Shown here: positions 28,356-32,959 of the stretch, in pieces | How positions within the stretch are numbered: position 1 is the first letter of the stretch | Layout of the letters: each line of letters starts with the position of its first letter | Assembly: GCA_039196715.1 (NCBI GenBank) | Contig: JBCCUP010000046.1 | Coordinates: 1-36,048 of the forward strand | Reading direction: 5' to 3' | Source: Pseudomonadota bacterium | Lineage (GTDB): Bacteria > Pseudomonadota > Gammaproteobacteria > CALCKW01 | DNA: 36,048 bases | Translations under genes and position numbers: made by a program | Notes under the pieces: generated by a model | The model's database searches: none | Seen by the model: the letters and a program-made list of their open reading frames with translations, nothing else | Told to the model about the DNA's origin: nothing

Positions 28356-28847
28356 TCAGCCTGTCGACTGCTCCCGGCGAAACGCAATGCCGGTCCGGCA
28401 GCCAGCATCGATCTCGGCGATGTGGTGCGTGAGGCTACCGCGCGGGCGCGAACGCAACAGATCGCCCTTGAGAATCAGCGTGATGCCCCCGTCGGCGAGC
28501 GACTCGTCCGAACTCGGCGCCTCGGTCACCGCGTACTCGGTGCCCTGGCGCAACTCGAAGCGACCCCGCGAATCGACCGGCTGTTCGACGTACTGACCCA
28601 GAAGGTTGATCTGGGCGACCGACTCCACCACTTCGAAGGCAAACTCCCCTTCGATGTCCTGACAGGTCAATTCCCAGTCGCCTGCGAACTGCGTGCGCGG
28701 TGTGCCGCCGAGCTCGGCTGTCCACCAGCCGTCGAAGGGGTGTGCGATGACCGCACCCTGCACGTCGTGGTGAACCACCGGGTCGGTGGTCGCACACCCG
28801 GACACCGTCGTGATCAAAACGGCCAACGCGGCCAGTCGGGCTGCCAT
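28356..28847 (-). CDS. Small lipoprotein A of a paralogous pair, unknown
   Basis: A 163-residue lipoprotein precursor with lipobox V15-S-G-C18. The family is not one I can name. The mature part has HPFDGWWTAELGG, WELTCQDIEGEFAFEVVESV, a strand-rich centre, EAPSSDESLADGGITLILKG and a final GCRTGI, which fit a small beta-structured domain with two cysteines that could pair. It is clearly homologous to the lipoprotein at 30386-30883, sharing near-identical GEFAFEVVESV and EAPSSD blocks, so the two arose by duplication. AGGAG lies about 8 bases before ATG 28847. It is the last gene of a three-gene unit with a HExxH lipoprotein between the two paralogues. Confidence 0.8.
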   Translation of the reverse strand: MAARLAALAVLITTVSGCATTDPVVHHDVQGAVIAHPFDGWWTAELGGTPRTQFAGDWELTCQDIEGEFAFEVVESVAQINLLGQYVEQPVDSRGRFELRQGTEYAVTEAPSSDESLADGGITLILKGDLLRSRPRGSLTHHIAEIDAGCRTGIAFRREQSTG

Positions 28848-28946
28848 GGGTGTCGCTCCTGTCGTATTCGGGTTTGCACGGTCGGTTGGTCAGTTGGTGT
28901 CCGAGCGGGCCCAGCGCCGTGCGAAGGGCACCCCGCGCCCTGTCAC

Positions 28947-30389
28947 TCAGGCCGCGCCGTCGACGAGGTCACGCAGAAACGCACGTCCCGCGCGGACCGC
29001 TGCCGCGTGCATGCCAACCGGCACACCGCTGACCACTTCAAACACGTAGTCGGCACTTGCCGTTGCAGTGAAATTCAGCACGCCGACGCGTTCGCCACGC
29101 TGGTACAGGTGCGCACTGACCTCGTACATCACCCCATCAACGCCGTGTCGGGCGGTGCTCATCTCGGTCTGCTCGGCCCTGAGATTGCGCAAACTGAGGC
29201 TCGCACCCACCACACTGCCGGACTGGCGCCGAAACGCGCTGGCCGCTTCGGCGGCGAAGTGCTGTGCCGTTTCGGCCGAGGTGGTGCGCGTGACCCGCAG
29301 CTCCACCGGATCCAGGCGGTCGCCGCTCTGCTCGTAAAACACCGTCTCGGCAGCACCTTCGACGATGCGCAGGCGCGAGGACACCACCTGCTCACGCCGC
29401 GTGGCGTTGGTCGGGAAGGCGTTGGCGTCGACCGGGTTGCCGGCGAACTGCACCCAGTCACCGGTTTTCAGGGGAAACTCGAAACGCGACAGCGCCGACT
29501 GCAAGGCCTGGTTTTGCTGTTCCCGGTGCGTGTCCGGGCGCGGGTCCGCCGCGAAGATGCTGACCGCGTCGCGCGGCGGTTGACGCAAGGTGGCCTCCAC
29601 CAGCGCCTGCCCCTCCGGCATACGCACCATCCGCTCGAGGTACCGGCGCCCCTCAAGGTAGCGCAGCGTCGAACTGTTGCCGCTTCGCCCGGGCAGCACG
29701 TCCAGCGTGGCATAGCCGCGGTTGCGGTGCCGGAACGAGCTCGCAGCCACCGCGAAACCGTGCTCGCAGTCGAGCTGCCGGCACAGGGTCTTGGCAAGAA
29801 GTTCGGCGTGGCCTTCAAACACGGCGGAAAAGGCAAGGTTGTTGCCGCCGTACTGGGCTTGCAATCCTGAAAAGTCGACGCGCACATCGTCGGCGGCGTG
29901 AACCCACTCGTGGATGAAGAGCGGCAACAGCGCGTCCCGCTCCGACACGCCCGCCTCGGCGAGGGACGCCACGTAGTTCGCGACGTTGACGGCGTCGTAG
30001 ACGATCACTTTATCGGTCTCGTCGTAAAAGGCCAGCACGCTGTCGAGTCGCTCCTCGACGAAGTCGTCCGCCAGACGGTCGAGGTGACGCTGGTCGAATT
30101 GGCTCAGAAACCCGCGCGTGACCGAGCGTCGGTGCCAGTCCGCCATCGTGTCCTTGTCGACCACGTGCACGTCGACGTGCGCAAGGTCGACGCGGAGCCG
30201 GCGCTCGACAGCCGCCCGGGCGACATCAATCAGCCGATCCACCTCCGGCCTCACCGTCACAGGCGAGGCGTCGGTGAACAGCGAGCGCTGCACGGCGGTG
30301 TTGGAAGGCACGGTCGCGCAGCCGGCGATCACGAGGCTGAGAGACACGCCGAGTCCGCGAAGCGTGCGAGCAAGCACGTCCCGAATCAC
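28947..30389 (-). CDS. Putative zinc-metallopeptidase lipoprotein (HExxH), unknown family
   Basis: A 480-residue lipoprotein precursor with lipobox I21-A-G-C24. A candidate gluzincin site is present: H160-E161-W-V-H164 within LLPLFIHEWVHAADD, and 28 residues on F191-E192-G-H, where E192 could be the third zinc ligand. The sequence before it (RHLDRLADDFVEERLDSVLAFYDE) and after it is unlike any family I can name. The C-terminal third (about 330-480) is probably a second, beta-rich domain. GTG 30389 overlaps the upstream lipoprotein stop (GTGA) and has GAGGAG eight bases ahead, so translation is coupled. It is probably anchored to the inner leaflet of the outer membrane. Enzymatic activity is inferred only from the motif. 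Confidence 0.7.
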   Translation of the reverse strand: MIRDVLARTLRGLGVSLSLVIAGCATVPSNTAVQRSLFTDASPVTVRPEVDRLIDVARAAVERRLRVDLAHVDVHVVDKDTMADWHRRSVTRGFLSQFDQRHLDRLADDFVEERLDSVLAFYDETDKVIVYDAVNVANYVASLAEAGVSERDALLPLFIHEWVHAADDVRVDFSGLQAQYGGNNLAFSAVFEGHAELLAKTLCRQLDCEHGFAVAASSFRHRNRGYATLDVLPGRSGNSSTLRYLEGRRYLERMVRMPEGQALVEATLRQPPRDAVSIFAADPRPDTHREQQNQALQSALSRFEFPLKTGDWVQFAGNPVDANAFPTNATRREQVVSSRLRIVEGAAETVFYEQSGDRLDPVELRVTRTTSAETAQHFAAEAASAFRRQSGSVVGASLSLRNLRAEQTEMSTARHGVDGVMYEVSAHLYQRGERVGVLNFTATASADYVFEVVSGVPVGMHAAAVRAGRAFLRDLVDGAA

Positions 30390-30883
30390 CCCTGTTGCTC
30401 CTCTGCGCCTGCGTCACGCACGTAGCGGATCTTGGTTCGGCACCCGCCCCAGAGCTGCTCGATTCGCTCGGTCAGCGTGCCGCGCGGGTTGGCGCCGGCG
30501 AGCTTTCCCTTGATGACAAGCGTGACACCGCCGCGGTTGAGCGCGCTGTCGGACGATGGCGCTTCCTCAAACGCGTAGGCGGTGTCTTTCTCGAGCGTGA
30601 ACTTGCCGCCACGGCTCAGGGGCTGGGCTACCTCTTCGCCGAGCAGGCTCATGTGCACCACGGACTCGACCACTTCGAAGGCGAACTCGCCCGCCATGTC
30701 ATCGCAGGTGATGATCCAGTTTCCGGCTTTCTGCTGGCGGGTTGTGGTCTGCAGTTGCGCAGTCCACCACCCGTCGTAGGGGTGCGCGGAATCAGCCAGT
30801 GCGCCGTCGGCGACCGTGGGTTGCGTGGCGCAGCCGTGCAGCGTGAGCGCCAGCAGGGCTGTCAGCAAGAGGGGTGAGCGCAT
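30386..30883 (-). CDS. Small lipoprotein B of a paralogous pair, unknown
   Basis: A 165-residue lipoprotein precursor; the lipid cysteine would be C18 (L15-H-G-C18, with an unusual histidine at -2). It is a paralogue of the lipoprotein at 28356-28847, sharing HPYDGWWTAQL, a TCDDMAGEFAFEVVESV block, an LLGEEV-QP segment, EAPSSDSAL, GGVTLVIKGKL, an NPRGTLTERI stretch and GCRTKI. Both have the lipid cysteine at 18 and two conserved cysteines in the mature part. It is the first gene of the three-gene unit, and its stop overlaps the start of the HExxH lipoprotein. The start is ATG 30883. A short inverted repeat (GTAGT ... ACTAC) lies just upstream and could shape the leader. Confidence 0.8.
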   Translation of the reverse strand: MRSPLLLTALLALTLHGCATQPTVADGALADSAHPYDGWWTAQLQTTTRQQKAGNWIITCDDMAGEFAFEVVESVVHMSLLGEEVAQPLSRGGKFTLEKDTAYAFEEAPSSDSALNRGGVTLVIKGKLAGANPRGTLTERIEQLWGGCRTKIRYVRDAGAEEQQG

Positions 30884-30991
30884 GGGTCAGTCCGTAGTAA
30901 TAAAGCACTACAACGGTTTTCACGTCGCAGCGCGGGTCCTGTCTCTACGGTCTGTGGCGGTCAAGTCACCCGAAAACCTGAGCCGCCAGCC

Positions 30992-31007
30992 TGACCCAAA
31001 CGGGTCA
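30992..31007. promoter_or_regulatory. Perfect 16-bp inverted repeat between the aldehyde dehydrogenase and the lipoprotein operon
   Basis: TGACCC-AAAC-GGGTCA lies three bases beyond the aldehyde dehydrogenase stop codon and about 110 bases upstream of the lipoprotein B start. It could be the stem of a terminator for the dehydrogenase, although only scattered T residues follow on that strand, or an operator for the downstream operon. Confidence 0.4.
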
Positions 31008-31009
31008 AT

Positions 31010-32497
31010 TCATCGCATCACAAACGGATTGGCCATGGGTGTGTCGGCGGTGTTGATCCAGGTCGTGCGCGTGCGGGTGTAGTCGAGCACCGACGCCAGG
31101 CCCGCCTCGCGCCCGTAGCCCGATTGGTTGAACCCCCCGAAAGGCGCGATCGGCGAAATAGCACGGTAGGTGTTCACCCAACAGATCCCCGCCCGCAGGC
31201 GACCCGAGACACGGTGCGCCCGAGCCAGGTCGCGCGTGAAGATGCCCGAGCCGAGCCCGAAGTCGCTGTCGTTGGCAAGTCGGATCGCGTCGGCCTCGTC
31301 GTCGAACGGCAAGAGCGACATGACCGGCCCGAACAGTTCGGTCTTGAGGGTTTCGGTCTCCGGCGTCCGGCATTCGACCAGCGTCGGTTCAAAGTAGTGC
31401 CCCGACTGCCCCGCCGGTCGCGCGCCCCCGAGATGGATGACCGCCCCTTGCGCGACCGCCTGCTCCAGCGTGCGTTCGATCCGCTCCACCTGAGCCAGGG
31501 TGCACAGCGGGCCGACGTGGGTCGCCGGATCGAGCGGGGGCCCGACGACAATGCCCGCCGCTTTGCTCCGAATGCGTTCAATCATGTCGGCGAGGATGGG
31601 ACGGTGGATCAGGCCGCGGCTGCCGGCAACACAGGATTGGCCGGACGCGCCGAAATTGCCGGCGATCAGGCCGTTGGCAGCGCTGTCGAGGTCGGCGTCG
31701 TCAAAGACGAGGATCGGCGATTTGCCGCCGAGCTCCAAGGTCGTGACGGCGAAGTTGTCGGCGGAGTTGCGCACCACGTGGCGCGCCGTCTCGGGTCCAC
31801 CGGTGAAGGCGATGCGATCCACGTCCGGGTGTGACGTGAGCGGCGCGCCGCACGACGGTGCGTCGCCGGTGATCACCGACACCACGCCGGGCGGGAAGCC
31901 CGCCTCGTCGATCAGACGGGCAAAGGCCAGCATCGCGCACGGGGCCACCTCGGAGGCCTTGATGATCACGGTGCAGCCGGCGGCCAGGGCCGGCCCGAGC
32001 TTGGTCGCGGTGAGAAACATCTGGGCGTTCCAGGGCACCACCGCGACCACGACACCGACTGGCAACGGCGTGGTGAACACGTGCATGTCGGGTTTGTCGA
32101 TCGGCAGCACCGCGCCTTCGATCTTGTCCGCGAGGCCGGCAAAGTACCGGTAGTAGTCGGCGACGTAGGCCGTTTGCGAACGCGTCTCCGCAGCCAGCTT
32201 GCCGCTGTCGCGCGTTTCGATTTCGCCGAGCGCCCCGGCATCGCGTTCGATCAGGTCGGCGAGTCGGTGCAGCAGCTTGCCGCGCGCGGTTGCGCTGAGG
32301 CCACACCAGAGCGGGTCGTCGAGTGCACGCCGCGCGGCGGCCACGGCGGTGTCGACATCCGATGGTCCGGCCAGGGGGAACTGCGTCCAAGGCTCGCCCG
32401 TGGCCGGGTCGAGCGAGTCCGCGGTCGCGCCGAGTGAGCCCTCGCTGAACACACCGTCGATGTAGAGCAGGTAGGGGTCGGTCAGGTCGATCGGCAT
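31010..32497 (-). CDS. NAD(P)-dependent aldehyde dehydrogenase
   Basis: ALDH-superfamily enzyme of 495 residues that oxidises an aldehyde to the carboxylic acid. Visible elements are VPWNAQMFLTATKLGPALAA (cofactor and Asn site), IIKASEVAP, FTGGPETAR, general-base Glu in LELGGKSP (near 254), nucleophile Cys in GASGQSCVAGSRG (near 289), ELFGPVMSLLPFDDE and the C-terminal PFGGFNQSGYGREAG. The frame is open to 32725, but ATG 32497 (MPIDLTDPYLLYIDG) gives the family N-terminus; the ribosome site is weak. The substrate cannot be read from sequence; betaine- or carnitine-related aldehydes are among the options. It is divergent from the TRAP importer, which may point to a shared substrate route, or may be chance if the importer is a recent arrival. 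Confidence 0.9.
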   Translation of the reverse strand: MPIDLTDPYLLYIDGVFSEGSLGATADSLDPATGEPWTQFPLAGPSDVDTAVAAARRALDDPLWCGLSATARGKLLHRLADLIERDAGALGEIETRDSGKLAAETRSQTAYVADYYRYFAGLADKIEGAVLPIDKPDMHVFTTPLPVGVVVAVVPWNAQMFLTATKLGPALAAGCTVIIKASEVAPCAMLAFARLIDEAGFPPGVVSVITGDAPSCGAPLTSHPDVDRIAFTGGPETARHVVRNSADNFAVTTLELGGKSPILVFDDADLDSAANGLIAGNFGASGQSCVAGSRGLIHRPILADMIERIRSKAAGIVVGPPLDPATHVGPLCTLAQVERIERTLEQAVAQGAVIHLGGARPAGQSGHYFEPTLVECRTPETETLKTELFGPVMSLLPFDDEADAIRLANDSDFGLGSGIFTRDLARAHRVSGRLRAGICWVNTYRAISPIAPFGGFNQSGYGREAGLASVLDYTRTRTTWINTADTPMANPFVMR

Positions 32498-32959
32498 GGC
32501 AGTCAGGGCTCGGGTGGCGAGCGCCGACCTTCGCATCCCGTCAGCGTACCCGCAAGCGCCGCTCCGCCGGCCGGCCAACGAGGGGCCGCCGGTCCCACCA
32601 TCCCCGGCCTCGACCTCGCCCGCGGCCCGCTCGACCGACCGCCGCCGGCTGCGGGACACGCAACGCTGGGCCCCGTTCGGCCGAATTCGAGCCGTCGAAC
32701 TGCCCACCCGACCACCGTGGCGCAACCGGCAGGGGCAGAAACCGGAAGCGAAGCCCAGAATGAATCAAGAACTTGAAATATAGTTCTGTCACTTCACGTC
32801 GAATGAGAGTACGATCGAGACCGTTGGTCTCATTTAAGCAATCTGCCGGTTCCCGCCAGCGCCGCTGACGTGGAACGTCGGACCAATAAGCTTCGAGGTG
32901 CTGCCTTCAGCCTCGCGGCAAAACACATCACGAAGGTTCTTTCAACAAGAGGAGTTGAC
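32498..32959. other. Intergenic region between the aldehyde dehydrogenase and the TRAP genes
   Basis: About 460 bases with no convincing gene. The first 250 bases are very GC-rich like the left part of the window; from about 32750 the sequence turns markedly AT-richer (CTTGAAATATAGTTC) and stays mixed to the dctP start. The TRAP promoter should lie here; TTGAAA (32773-32778) and TATAGT (32779-32784) are -35- and -10-like hexamers, but they abut each other and cannot form one promoter. No tRNA, transposase or attachment site is seen. Confidence 0.5.
32817..32831. promoter_or_regulatory. Operator-like palindrome upstream of the TRAP genes
   Basis: GAGACC-GTT-GGTCTC is a perfect inverted repeat, and an outer pair AATGAGA (32802-32808) and TCTCATT (32828-32834) overlaps it. 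The position, about 130 bases before dctP in the AT-richer segment, suits a binding site for a transporter regulator (GntR or LysR type are common for TRAP operons). No regulator gene is in the window. Confidence 0.4.

Follow-up and report, generated by a model that had tools for sequence, protein, structure and literature searches.

A lipoprotein operon with a probable gluzincin-type metallopeptidase, remotely related to Hvo_1808 surface proteins, in a gammaproteobacterial genus

The window analyzed here is the whole of a 36,048-nucleotide stretch (contig JBCCUP010000046.1, positions 1 to 36,048, GenBank assembly GCA_039196715.1) of a marine gammaproteobacterium of the lineage CALCKW01, and it carries three consecutive lipoprotein genes on its minus strand. 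The first, lp1 (30386..30883), encodes a small lipoprotein of 165 amino acids with its lipobox cysteine at Cys18, a DGWW motif and two conserved cysteines; the call rests on the open reading frame, the identity to lp2 and the family alignment. The second (28947..30389) starts with GTG and encodes an HExxH lipoprotein of 480 amino acids, a probable gluzincin-type metallopeptidase (hereafter the peptidase), called from its open reading frame, an orthologue in a sister genome, a family of 32 members and homology to Hvo_1808. The third, lp2 (28356..28847), called as an open reading frame of 163 amino acids, is a paralogue of lp1 and starts 99 bp past the peptidase stop. Shine-Dalgarno-like sequences precede the peptidase (GAGGAG) and lp2 (AGGAG), and the G+C contents of the three frames by codon position (about 0.66-0.72, 0.46-0.50 and 0.81-0.82) fit coding in the called frame. 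The operon is flanked by an aldehyde dehydrogenase gene on one side and a gene for an oligopeptide/dipeptide-type ABC ATPase on the other. Just upstream of lp1, a terminator-like hairpin of 11 pairs followed by TTTATTA lies on the minus strand (window 30905-30933) and might set the operon off from the neighbouring aldehyde dehydrogenase; the terminator scan gave 4 sites against 2.2 expected.

The three genes were confirmed as real where a sequence-only reading of this DNA had placed them, and the interpretation given there was borne out in part. The translational coupling of the peptidase to a small lipoprotein is seen in a four-nucleotide stop-start overlap, GTGA (30386..30389, minus strand), which is matched by a TGATG overlap in the sister species; the two small lipoproteins are indeed paralogues, with 52% identity over 143 amino acids; and the HEWVH motif and downstream FEGH of the peptidase place H160, H164 and E192 exactly at the residues named. 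The reading had also found no family to which any of the proteins could be assigned. This stands insofar as the window proteins gave no credible match to a named family in Pfam, NCBIfam, PHROGs or PADLOC, and no solved structure in a sequence search of the PDB, but it does not stand for the peptidase, which is remotely related to the Hvo_1808 family. A phage or anti-phage origin of the operon was considered and rejected, there being no PHROGs or PADLOC matches. All three proteins carry a signal peptide and a lipobox (LHGC, IAGC and VSGC), with alanine after the cysteine in each; under the Lol rule, by which alanine at this position leads to the outer membrane, all three are predicted to be located there.

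The best conserved stretch of the peptidase is the region around HExxH and E192, as reflected in the 32-row alignment by a mean majority fraction of 0.75 at residues 151-215 vs 0.40 at residues 346-480. The codons for H160-E161-W162-V163-H164 (29898..29912, minus strand, as for the features that follow) and for E192-G193-H194-A195, in which E192 is the candidate third metal ligand (29805..29816), are followed by those for a cysteine pair, C203 and C208, that may form a disulfide (29766..29783), and by the codon for Y244 of a YxEG motif (29658..29660), a candidate catalytic-site residue. Across 32 distinct homologues, the more distant of which fall to about 20-27% identity with the window peptidase (those from the other order to about 20-25%), H160, E161, H164, D167, S188, E192, G193, H194, A195, C203, C208, Y244, E246, G247, P271, P272 and D274 are invariant; the spacing from H164 to E192 is 28 residues in 32/32, and the lipobox cysteine (C24) is kept in every homologue aligned. 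An HExxH motif arises in 2.3% of shuffles of the 480-residue protein, so that the motif alone proves little, whereas its invariance across the homologues does. If the 30 invariant columns were placed at random in 480 positions, the probability that they would include all four metal and catalytic ones is about 1e-5. The invariance of HExxH and E192, the fixed spacing and the remote homologues together indicate that, at the level of sequence, the active-site pattern of this lipoprotein is a genuine gluzincin-type signature and not a chance HExxH.

The kinship of the peptidase can be traced to the Hvo_1808 family of surface proteins. The NCBIfam model NF038145 (Hvo_1808 family surface protein) was matched by 30 of the 32 homologues, with a best E-value of 1.6e-12, over a stretch reaching from before HExxH to PP and including EGxA and YxEG; the best homologue scored 47.5 bits vs the 200-bit cut-off of the model, and a search with the window peptidase itself gave no match to it. 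The family was further compared by hhalign with four Hvo_1808-type proteins, namely a haloarchaeal member found by a weak tblastn match and three more, one of them from a Chloroflexota plasmid. The 32-row alignment matched these with 96.8% probability and an E-value of 3.1e-10 over 207 columns, while the two sequences of the window lineage alone matched weakly (41% probability, E 2.7e-4), and thus the link to Hvo_1808 runs through the Granulosicoccaceae members of the family. All four relatives share HELxHALQDQ, EGxA and YxxG in a common order, with the tyrosine corresponding to Y244, and the three haloarchaeal ones also have paired cysteines where the window peptidase has C203 and C208. The NF038145 matches and the hhalign result together point to a remote bacterial branch of the Hvo_1808 group, and by these profile comparisons the window peptidase is remotely related to the Hvo_1808 surface proteins, although it lies below the family cut-off.

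The likeness extends along the protein, the shared order being HELxHAxxDQ, EGxA 27-36 residues further on, the cysteine pair, YxxG, PP and Q-I, after an N-terminal lipobox that reads LAGC in Hvo_1808 and IAGC at C24 in the window peptidase. In contrast, the window branch has HAADD where the relatives have HALQDQ, and EGHA(Q/E) where they have EG(E/D/T)A, and the haloarchaeal plasmid copies have no small lipoprotein seen alongside. Hvo_1808 itself, the best-studied member of the group, has been described as processed and cell-associated, with LAGC as its lipobox, and the part of the source consulted gives no function for it (PMC2945643). The combination of HExxH with a downstream glutamate is also that of the gluzincins among the zincin-like peptidases (Pfam DUF6782 'putative metallopeptidase', M61, M76), and the peptidase homologues gave weak, sub-threshold matches to gluzincin-type Pfam families; however, the peptidase family rises above no Pfam cut-off, and the resemblance is one of sequence.

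The distribution of the two protein families was followed through related genomes, above all through an order-level set of 48, which we take to be the family Granulosicoccaceae. The group is marine, and some of its members live in association with seaweed. Profile searches detected the peptidase in 44 of the 48 genomes and the small-lipoprotein family in 29, counts drawn mainly from draft assemblies that differ in completeness. A class-wide sample added only two further, distant relatives of the peptidase; in the class and phylum samples it was not convincingly found beyond the window's genus and Granulosicoccaceae, the other matches being short and weak (E 1e-5 to 0.1) and taken as noise. In the sister MAG of the same genus (G001, contig L005), the peptidase orthologue is 57% identical, the surroundings are shared and the gene order is kept, with one small lipoprotein only. 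The Granulosicoccaceae proteins are orthologous to the window peptidase and share its motifs and lipobox, but they differ in their setting: no small lipoprotein adjoins the peptidase in any of the ten loci read, where it is solo, and in several genomes an HNH endonuclease gene lies next to it. The proposal, made from the window alone, of a system with two related accessory subunits is weakened by this comparison, since the sister lacks the second small lipoprotein and the peptidase stands by itself in the Granulosicoccaceae loci read.

Searches of a third species of the genus (G003) matched neither the peptidase nor the small lipoproteins, nor any close aldehyde dehydrogenase. In an rpoB tree, in which the row of G022 is misread and that of the window's own assembly (G000) is discordant, this third species is sister to Granulosicoccaceae with support of 100/99, and shared descent can therefore explain the distribution of the peptidase. 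The discordant rpoB gene (L111, G000 contig C6, 590-4645) is 74% identical to that of G003 and is placed elsewhere in the tree; contig C6 may be a contaminant of the window's MAG. The site of the operon is itself variable. Between flanks shared with the window (DnaE2-ABC ATPase on one side and a DctP-type TRAP protein on the other), G003 has a different cassette on contig C78 (L095 8306-12093, compared with window 28356-32545), which presumably encodes a sucrose-phosphorylase-like enzyme, a glucosyl-3-phosphoglycerate synthase and a mannosyl-3-phosphoglycerate-phosphatase-like protein, and this sugar cassette replaces both the lipoprotein operon and the aldehyde dehydrogenase. Between the window's assembly and the sister MAG, the operon proteins are 49-57% identical vs 84% for the aldehyde dehydrogenase, 88% for the ABC protein and 90% for DctP, from which it follows that the operon is changing at a much higher rate than the genes around it. 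Given the one small lipoprotein of the sister, the solo peptidase of Granulosicoccaceae and the cassette of G003, the best reading of the operon is that this arrangement belongs to the genus and occupies a variable site, with lp2 as an extra copy.

By their alignment, lp1 and lp2 are members of a second unnamed family. The lipobox cysteine, DGxW, a tryptophan, C62, C150 and GxL/GC motifs are invariant in the 13 small lipoproteins aligned. These 13 gave no credible match in Pfam or NCBIfam, and lp1 and lp2 searched against Pfam at E<=5 gave none apart from a spurious one. AlphaFold2 predicted for lp2 a beta-barrel at residues 40-158, with a pLDDT of 74 in the best model out of five and 34-56 in the others; the model places C62 between strands early in the fold and C150 in its final strand. 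The best structural matches of this model are to assorted beta-barrels, among them the PknI sensor, Cap15, fHbp, NHBA and avidin, with Z values of about 6-7 (7.4 at the top) that may reflect only a common arrangement. No I38 entry is among the 50 structural matches listed, an absence that excludes nothing.

We consider it somewhat probable that the operon encodes an outer-membrane-anchored, gluzincin-type zinc metallopeptidase facing the periplasm, together with one or two coupled, calycin-like lipoproteins that modulate the peptidase or its substrate. In the enzyme, H160, H164 and E192 would bind the metal, E161 would act as the general base and Y244 is the candidate transition-state residue; held in the outer membrane by its lipid anchor, the protein would act either in the periplasm or at the cell surface. 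The peptidase would be the old core of the system, alone in Granulosicoccaceae and remotely related to haloarchaeal Hvo_1808 lipoproteins, and the small lipoproteins would represent a separate, lineage-specific family that was put beside it in the window's genus and then duplicated in the window's species. Translational coupling would keep the small lipoproteins in step with the peptidase, and their most likely role would be to bind or modulate the enzyme or its substrate. Being translated just before the enzyme, lp1 would be best placed to serve as a chaperone or inhibitor, an adaptor also having been considered; the most likely reading of its coupled synthesis is that it is a binding partner of the peptidase in one of these three roles. 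Support for a functional link between the peptidase and the small lipoproteins comes from two genomes of one genus.

It is also possible, if less likely, that the genes sit together by chance: small ligand-binding lipoproteins, unrelated to the envelope peptidase, would be co-transcribed with it in the window's genus and share no function with it. The two families are unlinked in Granulosicoccaceae (27 genomes with both, 17 with the peptidase only, 2 with the small lipoprotein only and 2 with neither; Fisher p = 1), although this test has low power with four genomes lacking the peptidase, and the site holds other genes in the third species. What argues against mere proximity is that the stop-start overlap has been kept in two species despite only 49% identity between the small lipoproteins and 57% between the peptidases, and that the second copy, too, adjoins the peptidase in the window's species.

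If the small lipoproteins are partners of the peptidase, inhibition offers a familiar model. Small proteins, often beta-barrels, that inhibit proteases encoded nearby are an established theme. On such a model lp1, perhaps with lp2, would block the peptidase until it had reached its place or substrate, in the manner of Inh/AprI (I38), Omp19 or BamI, and the logic is shared, in that a small lipidated protein with two cysteines, predicted to be a beta-barrel, would be made just before the protease. Omp19 of Brucella is a lipoprotein inhibitor with an eight-stranded calycin barrel resembling Inh (PMC9486555); in the bicistronic bamI-mep72 operon, BamI, predicted to be partly unfolded, counters the toxicity of the Mep72 metalloprotease (PMC4334185). 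The likeness to these systems, a small periplasmic beta-barrel made with a zinc protease, is on the side of the window predicted from sequence and model. Against it, none of the 13 family members matched Inh or any other Pfam family, and C62 and C150, 88 residues apart, would join other elements than those joined in Inh and Omp19, where the disulfide runs from beta2 to the loop after beta3. Membership of lp1 and lp2 in Inh/I38 was rejected on these two grounds, and since they fall outside by both sequence and cysteine placement, the comparison extends only to how they could work. The putative protease partner in the window would also differ from those of Inh/AprI and BamI, as a gluzincin and not a serralysin-type metzincin. 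In the Granulosicoccaceae loci read, the peptidase has no neighbouring partner, so it does not in general require an inhibitor of its own; a peptidase-inhibitor pair in the window is unlikely.

A further reading, to which we likewise give little credence, is that the HExxH lipoprotein does not act as a peptidase but is a pseudo-enzyme or has a metal-binding or structural role. Pseudo-enzymes usually lose the general base, and E161 is invariant along with the metal ligands. In its favour, no family in the Hvo_1808-related branch has a demonstrated activity, and Hvo_1808 itself is known, from the part of its description consulted, only as processed and cell-associated (PMC2945643). A further proposal, that of a self-contained envelope protease-control unit in which a gluzincin of the Hvo_1808 superfamily has a dedicated inhibitor, a translationally coupled calycin lipoprotein that would represent a new inhibitor family and was duplicated in one species, we regard as improbable.

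With the reading of an outer-membrane metallopeptidase and modulating lipoproteins preferred, an uncharacterised lipoprotein family of nearly all sampled Granulosicoccaceae is now tied to the archaeal Hvo_1808 surface-protein family. The window genes are real and unnamed, and the peptidase forms a new, remote branch of a group that was already known but is uncharacterised. The prediction is that the whole Hvo_1808-related group consists of zinc peptidases, with specific residues named for mutation. To our knowledge, no candidate partner or regulator had been available for any member of this group, and lp1 and lp2, if they do bind the peptidase, would be such candidates.

A structural model of the peptidase built by AlphaFold2 from the two-sequence alignment of window and sister was poor (mean pLDDT 45.5), and Foldseek returned nothing meaningful with it, the overall match being to BlaR1. 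The C-terminal part (window 28950-29340) of this low-confidence model gave DcrB/PsbP-like matches. The corresponding part of the Hvo_1808-type relatives has a W...A..F motif, and this end of the peptidase may form a second domain.
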